A stretch of DNA of 64,000 bases. Origin: Porphyra umbilicalis. Its lineage: Eukaryota; Rhodophyta; Bangiophyceae; Bangiales; Bangiaceae. The stretch's first letter is position 1. The number at the start of each line of letters is the position of its first letter. The stretch spans positions 102,493-166,492 of the forward strand of contig KV918923.1 in assembly GCA_002049455.2 (NCBI GenBank). The letters are read 5' to 3'. Of the stretch, positions 44,009 through 53,640 are shown in pieces. The notes beneath the pieces were generated by a model that was not told the DNA's origin, made no database searches, and saw nothing but the letters and a program-made list of their open reading frames with translations. The translations under genes were made by a program, and so were the position numbers.

Positions 44009-44605
44009 TCATGACGCCCACCAGCTCGTCACGCCGAGCCCCGGGGTGCCCAACGACGCGGTAATCGTCATGGCCGGCCACTGCACGCGCGCCCGCTCCG
44101 CCGCCGCCGGGTCGAGGTGCACGCCGACAAAGCTCACGCCGACGACGCGGTAGTAGACGATATCCCCCACGTCCATGTACAAGTCGTTGCCGTCGTAAGA
44201 CCACACCCACCCCCCAACGCCGCCCGTCGCCGCCTCCCCCGCCACGTACCGGCTGGGCGTTTGGAGGTGCGCGGCGGTCACGTAAATGTCTTCAAAAAAG
44301 CCCGTGGAGAGGCGGAGGCCCTTGGCGTCGCACCCGGCAATGCGCGCCATGCCCACCTCCCCGAGGGCGGGCGCGTAGACAATGACGCGAAAGGTGACGG
44401 TCGTGTGGGAGCCCCCATCACCGGGGATGAGCCGCTCATCACCGACCGACGTGATGTCGTGGAGGGCGAGGACGAGGCCGACTTCGGGGAGCACCCGGTT
44501 GGCGTAGCGGGTCGTAATTTCGGTCGTCAGCGCCGCCCGGGGGGGGGCCCCAAAGCGCGTCGGCGGGAGCCGTATGGTGTCTTGGATGTCCACGAGCTTG
44601 AACAT
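44009..44605 (-). CDS. RNA polymerase III subunit RPC8 (Rpc25/POLR3H)
   Basis: The start MFKLVDIQDTIRLPPTRFG at 44605 is the family N-terminus, and the 198-aa length fits the human and yeast proteins (about 200). Conserved blocks follow in order: YANRVLPEVGLVLALHDITS, PGDGGSHTTVTFRVIVYAP, GEVGMARIAGCDAKGLRLS, GFFEDIYV, VWSYDGNDLYMDVGDIVYYR and the terminal LGTPGLGVTSWW. It pairs with RPC9 to form the stalk of RNA polymerase III, where its N-terminal tip domain and C-terminal OB domain contact initiation factors and RNA. The longer frame upstream of the ATG is GC-driven and not part of the gene. It converges on the N6AMT1-type gene, 377 bp apart. No intron. Confidence 0.95.
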   Translation of the reverse strand: MFKLVDIQDTIRLPPTRFGAPPRAALTTEITTRYANRVLPEVGLVLALHDITSVGDERLIPGDGGSHTTVTFRVIVYAPALGEVGMARIAGCDAKGLRLSTGFFEDIYVTAAHLQTPSRYVAGEAATGGVGGWVWSYDGNDLYMDVGDIVYYRVVGVSFVGVHLDPAAAERARVQWPAMTITASLGTPGLGVTSWWAS

Positions 44606-46790
44606 GGTGACGGGAGGGGGGCAGGCGGAGGGAAAGGCAGACGGGAAGCGGGGGGAACAAGCGCAAAGGCGGGCAGCAGCCGCCAGTGGGACGGGGCCAA
44701 CACACGTGTGCACAGGCTGCGGGGACCAGCAACTCCACCAAGGGAAGCTGTGCGGCTGTACGGGAAGAGGTGTGCATCTGCAGAGGTGGGGGGGAGGAGC
44801 ACAGACCAGCAGGCGGTATCCCTCCAAGGGCGACAGCGGCAAACCCGACGCCGCCGCGACGCTGGGAACGCGCCGCTGACGGCGGCGGCGGCGGCGAGCG
44901 TCGCCTTGCGGTGGCGGCGGCTCCAACGAGCACGTCGGCTCGACGTCATGATGGCGGATCACGAGACCGACGTGACCAAATTGAACGGTTCGGGTCGCAC
45001 CAAGACGCCGTTTCGCCGTTTCGCTCGGGCCGCCGCCGCGGCGGCGCGGCGGCGCCGTCGAGTCGAGGCGGGCGCGGCGGGTCGCCCATGCCCGCCTGAA
45101 CAGCAGCGGGGAACAAACACACTCTGGTTTTGCCACGCCGTGCTTGGTGGGGATTCCGTCGCTCTGAAGGGGGTAAGGGAGGAAAGCACAGACCCTGCAG
45201 CGTCCGCCGGCGGCTCGAACAGCACCTCGCTGCAGATCAAACGGCGGGGTGGTGGAGATGGTGCTACCGTGGTGGACGCCGCACGGGTGCGCGCCGCCAG
45301 CCTTGAGTTCCCGGGGCGCTATCCAGTGTTCACGGTGGACCGCCGGTCGACACGTGCGCGGGGGTCTCTGTGCCGCGGCCACGGCGCCGCTTGTCCCGCT
45401 CGTGCGCGATTGCGCGCGGTCGTTGCGTCTGGGCGCGACAACAGTGAGGACTTTCAAGGGATACAACTCTACATGACCCTTACGGCGTGACGCGAAGAAG
45501 GCGGCCCAGCGCTGCGTCGATCGAGCTGGAGAGTAGGCACACCCGAGGTCGGCCAGCGCCGCGATGCACCCAAATCACGCTGCATGTGCACAAGTATTGG
45601 AAACGAGTGACACACCTCCAACGAGAGTCTGAAAGTACACGGCTGCAGCGGGAAGTTGGCCGCGGCAAGAGCACCTCTGTTCCGACGGCCACGTCCCATC
45701 CCCCCACCCTACGTTTGAGGTGAGGCCCGCGGGGCGCTTCCAAAGACGGCCAGAAAATGCCTCGCGGCGGCAGTGTCGCCCGCGACGATGGGGCGTCGTG
45801 GCGCGGCGCCCCCGCTCGAGCACCGCGCGGGCCGGCAACCACCCATTCAATTGAAAGGCGTGGGGCCGAATCATGGCTTCCAAACATGTAGTTTCGCTGT
45901 ATCATTTTCAAGTCGAATGTACGTCCACACCAAAAAGAGCAACCCTCACACCCCCGAGAGCTGTCAGCGGGGGGTCTCGTCCCCCAAACCGCCGACCGCG
46001 AACGCGCGCGTCCACCTGCACCGCCGTTGCAACGTGTCTCGAGCAGTGCTTCCCACCGTCGCGCGTGCGCGGCGGCGCCCCCAAACGGACACCGCGTGGG
46101 CGGGCCGCGGTGGGTGGGCGCGCCCGCGCGCGCGTGTGGGTGGATGGGGGGGGGTGTGTGTGCCCCAACGGGCGGCAGCGGCGCCCGCCCCCCCCCCCCC
46201 CCCGACCCCCCCCACGCCGTGCCGTCCGCGCCGCGTCACGTGTCGCGCGTGCCCCCCCGCGGCAAACAGTGTGGCCGCCGACGGCGCCGCGGCGGGCCGC
46301 GCCGTGCGGGCGGGGCGGCCGGCGCCGCCCGCGCGCCGCGCGGCGGCCGTGCGGCCGACGTGCTGGCACGTCTGCCGCACCCGCCCGCCGCCGCCCCCGC
46401 CGCGCGGCACACGCACCGGCGCACGCACCAGCGCACGCACCGGCGGGCGGGGCGCGGCACCCGCGCCGCCCGCCTCGCCAACGGCGCGACGCGGCAGCGG
46501 CGGCGGCACGAGCCGCGGGCGCGCGGCGGCGACCGGCGGCGGCGGGCTGGCTGGCGACCGGCGGCGTGCCGCCCCGACGCCATTGGTGGCGGCTGCCTCT
46601 CGCACCCCCTGGGTGTGGTCGACTCCCCAGCGCCCGCGCCCGCCGTGTCCCCCCCGCGCCTGTCCGCCCGCGCCCCCCCACCGCCCTCGTCGGTCGGGTC
46701 GAGTCCGCCCCCCCCCCCTCCTCACCTCCGCGCCTTCCCCCTGCGCGCCGCCGCTGCCCCCCCCCCCGCCGGCCCCACGCTCCGCCGACC
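44606..46790. other. Spacer between RPC8 and the motif-repeat gene
   Basis: Long overlapping ORFs on both strands have Arg/Pro/Ala-rich, GC-driven composition with no domain. The segment lies between the RPC8 start (minus) and the next start (plus) and should hold two divergent promoters. From about 46090 it becomes extremely GC-rich. Confidence 0.35.
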
Positions 46791-47021
46791 ATGGCGCCGG
46801 TCGACGCGGCGGCGGGCGCGCCGCGCGGCGCCCCCCCCCCCCCCACGCCCACCCGCGGCCGCGGGCGCTGCCCCGCGCCGCCCGCTTTGCGGGCGCCGCC
46901 CCCGGCGCGCGGCCGCGCTCCACCCCGTCGCGGGGGGTGCCGCCGGTCGTGCCACCGCCGGCGGCAGACGCCGCCGCCGCCGGCCGCAAGCGGTCCGCCT
47001 CACCGCCGCCGCCCCGCAGCC

Positions 47022-47055
<34 letters not shown>

Positions 47056-47661
47056 GACGCCCGCAGCGGCGGCCGCCGCCCGCCGTCGGCGACGGCCGGC
47101 GCCGCCGCCGCCACCAGCGGCGGCCGCCATTGCCGCCGCCGGCGTCGGGCGGCTGGCGGTGCCCCCCCCCCCCCCGCCGCCGCCGTCGCCGCCGCCGCCA
47201 CCCCGTCGGCGGCGGGCGCCACCCCCGCCACCCCGTCGCCGCCCCGCCGCGGCGGCCGCCCGTCCCTGCCGCGCATGGCCGCGCTGCCGCGGGGCGTGCA
47301 CTTTGCGGCGCGGGCGGGGGGGGGGTGGCGGGGGGGGGGGGCGCCGCCGCGCCGGCGGCGGCGGCGCCGCCCGCGCGGCTGACACCCCCGCGACCCGGGG
47401 GGCGGGGCGACGCCCCGCCCTTGGCGGGGGGGGGGGGGACGCGCCGACGCCGCCCCGCCTGGGCGCGCGCCCGCCGTCGCCGCCGCCGCCGCCGCGGCGG
47501 CGGCGGCAGGTGGGTGTGGCCACCGAGGGGGGGGGGGGGGGGGCGCCGACGAGCGGGGGGGGGGGGGGGGGGGGGGGTGCCGGCGGGTGCCGCGCGACCG
47601 CGGCCGGGCGGCCGCCTGTCGCTGGGGGGGGGGCGCGCCGCAGCGGCAGCGGCAGCGGCGT

Positions 47662-47692
<31 letters not shown>

Positions 47693-48291
47693 AGCGTCGG
47701 CGGCGCCCGCCGTGCCCGTGGCGGGTGGCGCCGCCGCCGGCGGCGGCTCACGGGACCGCGGCGGCGGGGGATGGCCCGACGGCGCCGGCGACGGCGGCGG
47801 CGACGGCAACGGCGGCGCGGGGGGCGGCCGGTGGCTCCCCCGGGCGTGAGTGACAGCCTCTCGTGGACCGGGGACGTGGACCTCGCCGGCCAGTCCTTCC
47901 TCACCCCCGCCCCCGCGGCGGCGGCGCGACCGCCCGCCGCCGCCCCGACGGCGGCCGCCGCCGCGCCGCCGTCGCCGCCGTCACCCCGTGCCGCCGACGA
48001 GGCGGCGGCGGCGGCGGCCGCCGCCGCCGCCCCCCCGTCGACCGACGGCGACAGCGATGGCGGCGGCGGCGGCGGCGGCGGCGGCGCGGCGCCACTGGCG
48101 GCGGCGGCGCCGCCGCCGCCGGCAGCGCCGCCGCCGCCCGACGGCGGGCGGCACGCCCCCTCCCCCCCCGCGTGGGCGGGGGGCACCCCCTCCCCCGCGC
48201 CGACACGCTGTCGTGGGTGTCAGAGGGCGCCTGGGCCGCCGCCTCCTTCCTCGCGCCCCCCCCGCCGGGGGGTAAGCGCGGCGGCGGCGGC

Positions 48292-48332
<41 letters not shown>

Positions 48333-49689
48333 GGGGGCCCCGGCGGCGGGTGGCCCCGCCGGCGGGGAGGGGGGGTCGACCGCCCCCGCCGCCCGGGCGG
48401 CGGCGGCGGGCGGCGCCGCCCGCGGGGGGCGCGGCGGCGGCGGCGCCGCCGCCGCCGCCCCCATCCCGGGCCGCATTGGCGGCGGCAAGGCCGCCGCGGC
48501 AGCGGCGGCGGCGGCGGCCACCGCCGCGGCGGCCACGTCGGCGGCGGCCGCGTCGGCGGCGGGGAGGGACCCCGCGACGGGCCACGCGGGCGGGCGGCCG
48601 CGGGTGGTGGGGCGTCTGCCCCCCCCCCTCCTCCGCCGCTCCCCCCTCCCCCCCCGCCCGGTCTTTGGGCGGGGCGGTCCCCCCCCCCCTCGGGCGGTGG
48701 CGGCGGGGGCGGCGGGGGCTCCCCCCCCCCCCCCCCCACCGACGGGGAGCCCGTGTGGCGCGCCCCCGCGCGCTCCGACACCCTCTCGTGGGCGGTCGGG
48801 GCGGACGTTGCGGGCCACTCCTTCCTCGTCGGCCCGACGGCGGGGCCGTCATTGCCGGCGGTGGCGGCGGCGGCAACCGCCGCCGCGTGGCCCCCGTCGC
48901 CGCCGTCGCCGCCAGACGCGCTCTCCCGCTCCGAGTCCCTCTCGTGGGTCGCCGACGGGCGGCTGCAGGGGCAATCCTTTTTGGTCGGCACCCCCGCGCC
49001 GCCGCCGTCGCTCCTGCCCCTGTCAGCCGTCACGGCGGCAGCGGCGGCGGCGGGTGTGGCGGCGGCGGCAGCGGCGGCGGGTGCGGCGGCGGCGGCGGCG
49101 GCAGGGGGCAAACGGGCGCCTGGGGGGGGGAGGAGGATGGGGGGAGCCCGGGCTCCTCGGCAGACTCGGACGTGGGGGGTACTGGCGCGCGCCGCTGCGC
49201 TCCGACACGCTCTCCTGGGCCGGCGACGAGGCGCTGCTCCACCAGTCCTTCCTCGTCCCCGTGGGTGGTGGGGCTGGGGCGGGCGCCACTGGCGGCGGCG
49301 GCGGCGGCAGCGGCGGCGGCGCCGCCGGCACGGGCGGCGGCGGCGGGCGCGGCCCCGCCACGCCCGGCGCCACGTCCGTCGCGGGCACGGAGCGCTTCTC
49401 CCGCCGCTCCTCGGCGCGCACGCTGCCGCCCGTGGCGGAAGACGAGGGGGCGGCGGCGGCGTTTGACGGCGCCGACGACGCGCCGCCGGGGTGGTCGGTG
49501 GCGTCGCTCACGCTCGACGGGTGCGGCGACGGCGGCGGGGGTGGGGACGGCGACGGCGACGGCGGCGGTGTCGGGCCGGGCGGCTGGGGCGCCCGCGCGG
49601 CGGCGGCGGCGGAGGAGCTCGCGTGGGTGGACGACGAGGCGCTGGTGGGGGGGCAGAGCTTCATCACCCTCCCGCCGCGCTCGCGGTGA
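46791..49689 (+). CDS. Low-complexity protein with six copies of a 17-residue motif
   Basis: ATG 46791 lies in ACCATGG; the stop follows ITLPPRSR at 49689. The frame must change several times, always in long C or G runs. Six motif copies are readable: DSLSWTGDVDLAGQSFL (47852), DTLSWVSEGAWAAASFL (48202), DTLSWAVGADVAGHSFL (48777), ESLSWVADGRLQGQSFL (48933), DTLSWAGDEALLHQSFL (49204) and EELAWVDDEALVGGQSFI (49612). Consensus: acidic, S/T, L-S-W, about nine variable residues, S-F-L. Copies 3-5 are preceded by RS. Linkers are Ala/Gly/Pro/Ser-rich and probably disordered; an early GRKRSASPPPP could be a nuclear signal. I know no family. Even spacing of a conserved Trp/Phe motif suggests repeated docking sites for a partner. 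The 3' end converges on the BRCA1-like gene, 235 bp away. Confidence 0.62.
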
Positions 49690-49924
49690 GGGCGCGGGGG
49701 GGGGGGGGCGGCGCGCGGCGCGGGCGTGGGGGAGGGGGTGGCCGTGGGCGGGTACCCGACGGGTTTGTCAATTTGTGGTCACGGCGGGCGCGTCTGCCCG
49801 CGCGCGTCTTTGCTGGGTGGTGGTGCCGTTCGAAAACGCCCCCACAGGGCCACCCGCACACGGCGCCGTGCCCGTACGGCACGGCACGCCGCGCGCGCCA
49901 ACCCCCCTCCCTCCCCCCTCCGCG

Positions 49925-51655
49925 TCACGTCGCCTTGACGGGCGCGACCGCGTCGAGGATCCAACTCCCCGGCACGCGCGTCACGCCCGGCGGGAGGTCC
50001 CCCGCGAGCAGCGCGTCCCCCCCCGACACGCGGACGGAGCGTTGGCTCGACCCCCCCCCCCCCCCCCCCCCCGGCGGCGCCCGCCCGACGGGCGTCCCCC
50101 CGCCTTCCCCCCCCCCCCACCTCCTCATCCACCACCAAATACAGTTGCGTCGCCGTATCCGCCGCCGCCGGCGGGCGCGGGAGCACGCGCGCGGCCCCCC
50201 CAGGCGCACGAGGTCGACGAGCGCCGCCGTTGGGGCACCCGGTCGGTGCGCCCCCCAAAATAAAAGCTGCAGCCGGCAAAGACCCCCCCCCCCCCCGCGC
50301 CGCCCGCGCCGCCGACCGCGCCGCCGAGGAGGCGAGCTCATACCCAACCGGCGACACCCACCGCCCATCCGGGGCGCCCGCGGAGTCCTCCACCCACTGG
50401 TAGGCGACGGCGGGGACGCCCGCGGCGGCGGCGGTGACGAGCTTGAGCGTCCGCCGCGGCTCGTCGGCGGGCCGGATGGCGTTGGTGACCACGTGCGTGA
50501 CGGCGGGGCCCCAGTCGGTGACGACGCGTGTCGGCGGGTGCGCGCGGGCGGCAAAGGCGGCGAGGAGTTCCGCTTGGAGGTCCGACGTGGCGGTGGTGAG
50601 GAGGACGAGGCGGGGGGGAGGCCGGGGGGGGGGGGGGGCGCGCCACCGACGGCGGTCGGTAGGGGTGGGCGGACCGCGACCGCCGCGCGCGTTTGGCGGT
50701 GGGGGGGGGGGGGGGGGGTGAGGGGGGGGGCCGGCGCAGGCGACGCCGTGCCCGCCCCGCTGGTGGGGCTCGCGGAAGGGGGGGACGATGACGGCGTGCC
50801 GCCGCCCGACGCCGACGGTGCCTCCCCGCCCGTCGACGGCGTGGGCCGGCGCTTGCGGCCGCCGCTGCGGCCGCCCGAGGCGCCCGCGGGCGGCGTCGTC
50901 GTTGCTCCCGCCGCCGTGGCGGCGGCGGCAGCCACCCACCGCCCCCGCCGCCCCCTCTTGAACGGGGTGGCGTCAGAGGAGGATGCCCCCCCAAACACCG
51001 CCCGCACCGTACTCCGCGTCGGCCCCGTGGCGCCCGACGTGCGGCTCGCCGACGGGTGCGCGGGCGGGGCGGGGGCGTCCACCCCCCCGCCACGCACCGC
51101 CCACAGTACCAGTCGTCGGCGGGGACGGCGTCGACGCCCGCGCACGGCAGGTGCGCAATCGCGGGGCAGCCGTCGCAGAGGAGGAGCTCCCCGGCGGCGC
51201 CGTCGCACACCCAGCACGCGTCCTCGTGGCTGCCGGGCGCTTCGGTGGGGGGGGGGGGGGGGGGGCACCCGCCGCGCCGTCGGCCGACGCGGTCGCCGTC
51301 GCCGACGCAGCGGGGGACGGGGAGGCCGACGTGGCCGCCCCGCCGGCGGCGCCGTCAGACGCGGTGGGCGCCGCCGCCGCCCCCGACGATGAATCCGTCG
51401 GCGCCGCCGCTGTGGCGGCGCCGCCCGCCTGCCGGGCGGCGGCCACCCCCCCGCCACGCAGCCGCGGCAGTACCACCCATCCGGCGGCACCGTCGACAGG
51501 CCCTCACACGCCAGGTGCGCGCCGCGCGAGCACCCATCACAGAGGAGGAGTTCCCCCCCGTCGCCGCCGCACGTCGTACACGCCCCGTCGTGGTCGGCGG
51601 CGGCGGCCGCGTCCGCGTCGCTCCCCACGCCCGCGTCCGACGCGTCCCCACACAC

Positions 51656-51713
<58 letters not shown>

Positions 51714-53234
51714 CCCCCCGCGCCGTGCCGCCCCGCCCCCACACACACCGCGCAGTACCAATCGTCGAGGGGCACCGCGTGGAGGTCCGCGCACGTCAAG
51801 TGCGCGGCGCGCGTGCAGCCGTCGCAGAGGAGGAGCTCCCCCCCCCCCCACACGCGTGGCACGCCTCCTCGTGGCCCTGCGTAAAGGCCACGCCCGCCGC
51901 CTCGACGGCGGCGCGGCCCGCCTCGGAGCCGCCACTCGTCGGCGACGGCGGCGGCGGCGCGTGCGCCGCCGCGTGCACCCCACAGTAGAGCGTGTAGGTG
52001 GCGGGGTAGAGGGCCACCCCAACCGCCGCGGGGCGGGTCGGCGTGCGATGCCCGCCGCCGCCCGCGGGGGGGCGGCGGCCGCCGCGCGCCGGTCCGCCCC
52101 GCCCCGACGCGCAGCCATAGTGAAAGGTGGCGCGGCACGACCGCTCGAGGCACCCACTCCCCGCGCCCCGCCCGCCGCACGCCGCACACCGCAGGCGGCG
52201 CGCGCGCGCGAGGGCGGCCGCCACGTTTAAGAGGCGCGGCGCCCCCCCCGGCGCGTCGGGCGCCATGCACACCTCGGGCGTCCACAGGGCGCACGCGAGG
52301 TGCACGGGGGGGTGGGTGGGCGCGTGGATGAGGGCGCCCATGGCCGCGTCGCCGCCGCCGCCGCAAAAGCCGCACGCGGTGGGGGGGGGGGGGGGGGGCC
52401 GACGCCGACGAGGGGGTGCTCGAGCCGACCCGCGCCGACGTGGGGGTGGGGGGGGTGGGGGGGGTGCCCCGGGGAGGCGGTCGGTGCGTCCCGCGGGCGG
52501 GGGTGGGCGGCGCCCGCGGCGGCGCCCCCACCCCCACGGGCGACGGCGACGGCGGCGGCGGCGACGGCGGCGGGGTGGTGCCACGGACGCGCCCCCGCCC
52601 GCGCCCGCGCACCCGCCCCCGCCCCCGCCCCCGCCCGCGGGCGCGCGCCCCCGGCGCCGCCGCCGCCGCCGCCGCCTTGGCCGCCCGCCGCGCCTCGGCG
52701 GCCCGCATCTCGGCGGCGCCGCGGGCGGCGGTCGCCGGCGGGAGCCCCCCCCCAGCCCCGCCTGCGTGCACCCGTCGTGCAGCAGGCCGTCTTCGGCGCT
52801 GCCCAGCGCGCCGCCCTCCCCCCCCCCCCCCCGCGCTCGTCATTGGCGGCGTCACCCCCCCCCCCCCCACCCCGTCCATGGCCGCCAGCGCGGCAGCCAG
52901 CCGCCCAATCTCCTCCACGTGCCCCCCAATGGCTTGCACATCCGGCAAGTCGACGGGCCGCAGCGCCCGCTTGGTCGCCGGCGCCTTGCACAGCGGACAC
53001 CGCGGGCGGGTGGCGAGCGCGCGCAGCGCGCACGCCGTGCAGTAGGTGTGGCCGCAGGGGAGGGACAGGGGCGCCGCCAGCCCCGACAGGCAAATGGTGC
53101 ACTGCGCGTCGGCGCGCGCGGCGGCAACGAGGGCGAGCAGCCGCCCGACGGCGGCGGGGGTGGCCACCGCCGTTGGGTCGTGGGGGGGTGGGGGGGGGGG
53201 GGGGGGGGGAGGGGCTATCCACGTCCATGTCCAT
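49925..53234 (-). CDS. BRCA1/BARD1-like protein: RING, extended PHD, three PHD fingers, two BRCT domains
   Basis: Proposed start ATG 53234 (MDMDVDSP); an upstream ATG at 53594 is possible. The frame shifts in several C/G runs. In order: RING (52985-53102), CTICLSGL ... CGHTYCTAC ... CPLCK; extended PHD (51975-52376), CGFCGGGG, LACALWTPEVCMA, ARARRLRCAACGGRGAGSGC, SCRATFHYGCA and YCGVH, close to plant BRCA1; then three PHD fingers (51735-51870, 51455-51582, 51085-51219), each ELLLCDGC ... VP.D.WYC..CV; then BRCT 1 (50335-50615), RVVTDWGPAVTHVVTNA and VPAVAYQWVEDS, and BRCT 2 (49930-50290) ending GSWILDAVAPVKAT. Plant BRCA1 and BARD1 are nuclear ubiquitin ligases in homologous recombination with RING, ePHD and two BRCTs. 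The three extra PHD fingers are unusual. Whether it is the BRCA1 or the BARD1 partner is unclear. Confidence 0.85.
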
Positions 53235-53640
53235 GGCCGCCACGTCCGGCTGGGGGGGGGGGGGGGGGGGAGGGAGGGGGGGCGTGGCGTCGGCGGGGGA
53301 GGCCGCCGCCCAAATGCCGGCGAGGGAAGGGACGACGGGCGGGCGGGCGGCGGCGGCGGGTGCCACGGTCGGCGCGGGTGGGAGGCCACCCGCGGGGAAT
53401 GGCCGCCGACAACGACCGCCGCCCGCGGTGGACGCGGCCGCGGCGCGCAGCGGCGGGCACGGCGGCGGCCGCCGGCGCGGCGGTCGCGGTTGCGTCGCGC
53501 CCGCGGCGGCGCCGCGGCGCCTGCAACGTGGATCCCGGCCACCGCCCCTGGCGGCGGGGCGGCGCGAGGGAGCGTCCCCGCGCAATGGCGCCAACCGGTG
53601 CTTGCACGCACTTAGGGTTGGGAAGAGCGCCCGGGGCGCT
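53235..53640. other. GC-rich region upstream of the BRCA1-like gene
   Basis: Either its promoter and leader or an N-terminal extension: an ATG at 53594 opens a frame that continues into MDMDVD, Ala/Pro/Arg-rich throughout with no domain. Evidence does not decide. Confidence 0.35.

Follow-up and report, generated by a model that had tools for sequence, protein, structure and literature searches.

A repeated tryptophan-centred motif in a probably coding, Ala/Gly/Pro-rich locus of the red alga Porphyra umbilicalis

The locus and its motif copies

Six copies of a short motif lie on the plus strand between positions 47852 and 49665 of the window, by which we mean the whole 64,000-nucleotide stretch of Porphyra umbilicalis DNA that was analysed. 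The surrounding DNA (46001-50000) is an extreme island, with a GC content of 84-87% compared with 65.9% for the whole window and with runs of G or C reaching 23. Divergent from the motif gene, on the minus strand at 44009-45571, is the gene for RNA polymerase III subunit Rpc25, whose SHS2_Rpb7-N and RNA_pol_Rbc25 domains share a single open frame. Downstream, also on the minus strand (49782-53611), a neighbour gene encodes a RING finger and at least three PHD fingers. Its RING and PHD signatures are over their cut-offs. One of the PHD fingers is read in a second frame, and a third frame has a BRCT match that falls short of its cut-off. The features of the motif region are as follows.

46791-46793, plus strand: ATG in the context ACCATGG, proposed as the start by the original prediction; putative
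47834-47902, plus strand, frame 2: motif copy 1, APPGVSDSLSWTGDVDLAGQSFL, without Arg at -3
48187-48252, plus strand, frame 1: motif copy 2, PLPRADTLSWVSEGAWAAASFL
48756-48827, plus strand, frame 0: motif copy 3, WRAPARSDTLSWAVGADVAGHSFL, with WRAP upstream, as before copy 5
48918-48983, plus strand, frame 0: motif copy 4, ALSRSESLSWVADGRLQGQSFL
49180-49254, plus strand, frame 1: motif copy 5, YWRAPLRSDTLSWAGDEALLHQSFL, with WRAP upstream, as before copy 3
49423-49446, plus strand: LPPVAEDE word, the first seven residues of which also follow motif copies on contig C74
49612-49665, plus strand, frame 1: motif copy 6, EELAWVDDEALVGGQSFI, divergent and adjoining the C terminus
49687-49689, plus strand: TGA stop ending frame 1

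That the region holds six copies had been predicted, and a pattern read in six frames recovered all of them. They share the form [DE]-[STE]-L-[SA]-W-x(8,9)-[QHA]-S-F-[LI], with cores at 47852-47902, 48202-48252, 48777-48827, 48933-48983, 49204-49254 and 49612-49665 (plus strand). Leu, Trp, Ser and Phe are unchanged in all six, as is the presence of Asp or Glu; the Ser after Leu is found in five (Ala in copy 6) and the final residue is Leu in five (Ile in copy 6). The outlier is copy 6, which reads EELAW and is longer by one residue. The description of the copies as evenly conserved is thus overstated. Across eight copies, comprising these six and two on contig C74, the consensus is RAPxRSDTLSWVxDxxLAGQSFLV; Leu, Trp and the later Ser are unchanged in 8/8 and S-F-[LI] is present in 6/8. 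The motif therefore reaches further towards the N terminus than originally described, with an Arg upstream. Spacing is not even: start-to-start distances are 350, 575, 156, 271 and 408 nt, or 117, 192, 52, 90 and 136 codons, the latter being approximate since frames are broken between copies.

The composition of the encoded chain was assessed on pooled pieces totalling 595 amino acids from 47834 on, with frames chosen by the analyst. In line with the predicted Ala/Gly/Pro-rich linkers, these pieces contain 28% Ala, 20% Gly and 13% Pro (together 60%), and they are acidic (pI 5.05). Judged by this composition, the chain is probably of low complexity and disordered. The motif segments make up 157 of the 595 residues and contain six of the eight Phe, 20 of the 29 Leu and seven of the 13 Trp. 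Phe and Leu are thus concentrated in the motif segments and Trp less so, six Trp falling outside them, two of these in WRAP words.

An Arg stands three residues before the Ser/Thr in 4/6 window copies and in both C74 copies, and R-x-[DE]-[ST]-L-S-W as a whole occurs in four of the six. Copy 1 has the Ser without the Arg, and copy 6 has neither, with Glu in place of Ser/Thr. R-x-x-S/T is the usual consensus of basophilic kinases, so that this element may be a candidate site of that type. The copies share ancestry, and binomial p values for the Arg site are therefore too optimistic. When the genome was scanned for R-x-[DE]-x-L-x-W in GC-type codons, eight matches were obtained, six of them known copies, against six for the reversed control. 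The two further matches, RHERLGW and RWECLAW, are without Ser/Thr at that place and without S-F-L.

Conservation of the copies and a second locus on contig C74

A chance origin of the copies was ruled out by shuffles together with genome-wide pattern counts. The loose pattern L[SA]W.{6,14}SF[LIVM], read in six frames, gave six matches, all within the region; the remainder of the window had none, and none arose in 500 dinucleotide shuffles of the region. A strict pattern at the codon level gave four matches in the genome (83.8-Mb assembly, 665 contigs), all in the motif gene, and none in the reversed control. As a lone query against the genome, copy 3 retrieved copy 5 (E 0.003) and a C74 copy (E 0.007), copy 4 weakly retrieved copy 1 (E 0.13) and a C74 copy (E 0.16), and copy 6 returned itself and no other copy.

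Codon comparisons were made between pairs of copies. Because the seven key columns were picked for being conserved, the telling part of their counts (19, 5 and 28 differences at codon positions 1, 2 and 3, over 105 pairs) is only that third positions there do vary. Five codons to each side of these columns, the corresponding differences were 87, 69 and 78 over 150 pairs. Third-position variation is lower in the key columns (28/105) than in the flanks (78/150), partly because Trp has a single codon. With flanks that differ and third positions that vary, both a recent DNA duplication of a short repeat and a repeat functional at the nucleotide level are disfavoured.

Elsewhere in the 83.8-Mb genome a single further locus was found, on contig C74, where two degenerate copies, PPRGDTLSWVTVVRLAGQSLLVG and PPRPDTLSWAVADGSQSPLVPSG, lie in one shared frame on the minus strand of 5.8-6.1 kb (L055). 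A/T bases in this frame are phased (p = 0.004), and the frame has no ATG upstream of the copies. DTLSW is kept in both copies, whereas S-F-L is replaced by S-L-L and S-P-L, with loss of the Phe. In another frame, HRAPLPPVAEDDANG follows the motif copies; it has LPPVAED in common with the window gene. The A/T phase of this stretch is not significant (p = 0.35), and when the C74 segment was shuffled 500 times, 13 of the shuffles also had a 7-mer in common with the window gene, so we regard the shared word as supportive and no more. Between C74 and the window, blastn returned low-complexity matches alone, on both strands, while tblastx placed the motif itself on top with low-complexity matches beneath.

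The original prediction held that each copy is under selection and named, as what would refute it, homologues in which the copies are not conserved. Residues kept while third positions vary speak for selection. In the one paralogue, C74, the first half of the motif is conserved (DTLSW 2/2) and the second is not (S-F-L 0/2), which weakens the selection claim for the motif's second half.

Upstream of the C74 copies on the same strand (L055:6317-7933), one open frame encodes a SAM-dependent methyltransferase (PF08241, E 7e-15) followed by an aspartate 1-decarboxylase, PanD (PF02261, E 2e-26). This frame ends about 200 nt before the motif copies. As for the fusion itself, we would guess at a role in beta-alanine methylation or betaine.

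A widespread motif family in this genome was considered and rejected. The D/E-x-L-S-W pattern at the DNA level gave 45 genome matches against 40 for the reversed control. Of these, 44 contexts were read by eye (excluding C254:73720): five belong to the motif gene, two to C74, and the other 37 have no S-F-[LI] after the Trp within the stretch shown. The exact 15-base word for D-S-L-S-W gave no genome match. A mixed C74 query gave three weak matches, on C25, C225 and C3 (E 0.2, 0.6 and 3), and the C-terminal block found itself and three weak matches on C39 (E 0.4 to 2). A likeness between the end of the neighbouring BRCT gene and a C74 stretch is, by rough arithmetic, compatible with chance. Two near-identical stretches were also met elsewhere in the genome, ETLSWMAAVRDARW... 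on C9, C18, C25, C47, C115, C120, C141 and C254, and DCLSWLAPTGQLEGPNRDCTRP... on C15, C16, C24, C27, C38, C76 and C83; both probably belong to dispersed repeats that have no connection with the motif gene.

Reading frames and gene boundaries

The region had been presented as a single continuous protein from 46791 to 49689. This was not confirmed, as the copies lie in three frames and no open frame joins all of them. Stop codons within 46000-50300 number three in frame 0, four in frame 1 and one, at 50261, in frame 2. The ATG at 46791 was likewise not confirmed as a gene start, for the A/T bases from there to 47833 show no consistent codon phase; single 120-nt windows in this interval each favour a frame, but differing ones. 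From 47834 on, A/T bases avoid the third codon position in the frame of each motif, with p of 0.05, 0.002, 0.006 and 7e-8 for four segments (against an expectation of 1/3, segment bounds set by the analyst). When the motifs were removed, p became 0.60, 0.035, 0.53 and 0.0005. Coding of the linkers is thus supported in two of the four segments only, with the 3' segment strong in both tests.

There are 18 G/C runs of at least seven in the region, the longest being G23. Intervals in which the frame changes contain two such runs (copies 1-2), six (copies 2-3) and one (copies 4-5); given 18 runs in the region, a run in every interval is weak evidence. The candidate sites of frame change are listed here, together with the boundaries set by segmentation.

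48162-48169, plus strand: C8 run, candidate frame change between copies 1 and 2 (segmentation: 48155/48156)
48619-48737, plus strand: cluster of C runs (C10, C8, C11, C17), candidate frame change between copies 2 and 3 (segmentation: 48665/48666)
49122-49130, plus strand: G9 run, candidate frame change between copies 4 and 5, taken from the run list; segmentation disagrees

The other run listed between copies 1 and 2 is C7 at 48030. By segmentation, the first two changes fall beside G/C runs, whereas the third falls at 49037/49038, with some 85 nt separating it from the closest run of at least seven.

Two readings of these breaks were weighed. One is that the locus makes no functional protein and is simply GC-rich DNA or a decaying gene, the copies being remnants and the frame breaks real. 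The spread of the copies over three frames would be expected of such a locus, as would the missing codon phase upstream of 47834 and, on C74, the loss of Phe and of an ATG before the copies in their frame. It is harder to reconcile with amino acids that are kept while third positions vary and with the codon phase of the 3' segment, which persists when the motifs are taken out. Further, runs of up to 23 G make length errors likely, and the RING/PHD neighbour gene, whose signatures exceed their cut-offs, is broken in the same manner. The frame scatter of that neighbour suggests that both genes suffer from one frame problem. Since the neighbour is also split over frames and G/C runs are present, length errors or short introns are the simplest cause. 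We consider a decayed gene unlikely, and the breaks are most likely homopolymer-length errors of the assembly or short introns.

Possible function and comparison with known systems

The motif matched no described repeat in the sources searched, in agreement with the original prediction. No Pfam family was over its cut-off in four pieces from 47855 on (E up to 10); two weak matches reached 10.6 bits against a cut-off of 27 and 9.9 bits against one of 24.6. The typed motif consensus had no match in the PDB. With copies 3-4 alone as query, 595 pattern stretches in GTDB contigs and 426 in IMG/VR viral contigs were obtained and none was confirmed. The words DTLSW and GQSFL occur in no paper found by word search. 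Papers with DSLSW or ESLSW look unrelated by their titles, several of which concern tag-based protein labelling and none of which names red algae; the S6 tag contains DSLSW. Twenty regular expressions were also run on the eight copies, 18 of them strict or relaxed forms of known motifs and two describing the motif itself. None of the known forms fits all eight. Consensuses for the LIR (ATG8-interacting), PAM2, clathrin-box, PCNA PIP and kinesin W-acidic motifs fit 1, 0, 0, 0 and 0 of 8, respectively, and the nearest partial fits were R-x-x-[ST]-L (6/8) and the relaxed PP2A-B56 form discussed below. A phosphopantetheine site of the carrier-protein type was rejected, as DSL occurs in one of eight copies and Thr or Glu replaces that Ser in six.

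Based on these observations, we propose, with a probability of about 0.5, that this is a nuclear, protein-coding gene and that it encodes a chain which is mostly rich in Ala, Gly and Pro, probably disordered, and furnished with six sticker motifs, typically R-x-[DE]-[ST]-L-S-W-x(8,9)-[QHA]-S-F-L, serving as a multivalent docking scaffold with a candidate phospho-switch. Each motif, a partly hydrophobic peptide, would use its Leu, Trp, Phe and final Leu to fold onto a pocket in a single globular partner, and the chain would bind several partner molecules together as an adaptor or condensate scaffold. Docking might be tuned by a basophilic kinase (AGC/CaMK/SnRK-type) acting, in four of the six copies, on the Ser/Thr that stands three residues beyond the Arg, and copy 6, with Glu and no Arg, could be a permanently on or off copy. 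A scaffold calls for several copies in one chain, and six conserved copies were found, in three frames; on sequence grounds a scaffold function is plausible. The observed copies, their conserved residues and the concentration of Phe and Leu within them fit the multivalent docking role originally put forward; its other parts, a single partner and condensate formation, we infer.

A bolder form of this proposal is a long shot. Here, a sticker code specific to the red-algal lineage would unite the six-sticker scaffold, a two-sticker client on C74 and one partner in a kinase-tuned condensate. In the boldest version, splicing may join the C74 stickers as a tail to the C terminus of the methyltransferase-aspartate decarboxylase, in which case a metabolic enzyme would be recruited by the motif. 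A frame-keeping donor (GTGAGG) and acceptor (CAGAG) can be drawn by hand between the enzyme frame and the C74 copies, making this a putative splice.

Alternatively, the protein could be a nuclear transcription regulator in which the motifs act as repeated acidic/aromatic elements for activation or coactivator binding. Acidic activation domains carry Trp, Leu and Phe among acidic residues and Ser in low-complexity surroundings, and the same is seen here, with Trp, Leu and Phe among Asp, Glu and Ser in a pooled chain that is acidic. Such domains rarely hold a fixed residue order over 17 positions in repeated copies, as this motif does, and the four pieces from 47855 on contain no domain over cut-off and hence no DNA-binding domain. 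We find this explanation distinctly unlikely.

Another possibility is that the motifs bind and condense Rubisco, which would make the protein a linker of the red-algal pyrenoid analogous to EPYC1, CsLinker or PYCO1. EPYC1 is strongly basic, unlike the acidic pooled pieces. An EPYC1-like motif form, W[KR]xx[LIVA], fits two of the eight copies, solely in the WRAP before the motif and not at the conserved Trp, and the PYCO1 word KWSP fits none of the eight. The host, in turn, is a red alga with phycobilisome linkers: PBS_linker_poly has 12 matches in the genome, four on C665 (probably plastid) and eight on other contigs, and among 14 control genomes it matched Synechococcus elongatus alone. In diatom PYCO1, six stickers that contain Trp are spread unevenly along a low-complexity chain (PMC10288592), and EPYC1, PYCO1 and CsLinker are without mutual sequence homology according to a 2026 review (PMC13159521). 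FLIPPer screens for proteins that are disordered over most of their length and carry structured repeats at intervals of 20-120 residues (PMC11570498); three of the five motif spacings fit this range, the counts being approximate. No red-algal linker is named in the pyrenoid literature covered, which takes in few subscription papers and no bioRxiv-only preprints. The motif gene resembles the Rubisco linkers in its proposed working but fails their motif tests, and we do not class it there, the linker reading being in our view very improbable.

We give similarly little credence to the idea that the copies are short docking motifs of a known type, for 14-3-3 or PP2A-B56, occurring in a new protein. 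R-S-x-[ST] does occur in three of eight copies, and five fit L-x-x-[AVTIL]-x-[DE], a relaxed form of the B56 motif. However, none of the eight has the Pro of 14-3-3 mode 1 (R-[SFYW]-x-p[ST]-x-P), the strict B56 form L-x-x-[IVLWC]-x-E fits one, and neither motif explains the conserved S-F-[LI]. A 14-3-3 family search found no match in this genome, but the controls gave none either.

Should the docking scaffold that we favour be expressed as one protein, it would provide a defined docking motif in a red alga that is open to testing. Each copy has a Trp that can be mutated and most have a candidate phospho-site, making the motif a ready bait for its partner. If that partner were Rubisco, the gene would supply a pyrenoid linker for the red algae, for which none was named in the papers covered. 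More generally, the locus illustrates how a gene with many motifs can go unseen in broken frames when an assembly is rich in homopolymers.

Among known systems, adaptors such as Eps15 and epsin bind one folded partner family through DPF, NPF or W-type motifs set along a disordered chain. The red-algal gene is like them in that its probably disordered product has numerous short hydrophobic motifs, and differs in a motif that is much longer and has a second half. With PYCO1 it shares a low-complexity chain, six uneven Trp-centred motifs and the red-plastid lineage; PYCO1, in contrast, has the motif KWSPRGGS and stickers shown to be helical and to bind Rubisco (PMC10288592). EPYC1 with its kinase KEY1 offers a likeness in repeated linker motifs whose Ser/Thr sites coincide with the binding regions or adjoin them; there, phosphorylation at these regions disrupts Rubisco binding and favours condensate dissolution (PMC13086578). 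Such a phospho-switch therefore exists in an alga, which offers the motif gene an analogy rather than membership; the kinase site of the motif gene is a consensus match, and the EPYC1-like form lies off the conserved Trp. CsLinker and other FLIPPer candidates were found, like the present gene, by architecture and not by homology, with probable disorder and spaced repeats in common (PMC11570498). By comparison, two of the five spacings in the motif gene exceed 120 residues, and its pooled pI is acidic. In our judgement the motif is real and probably coding, and it represents a new motif within a known kind of architecture.
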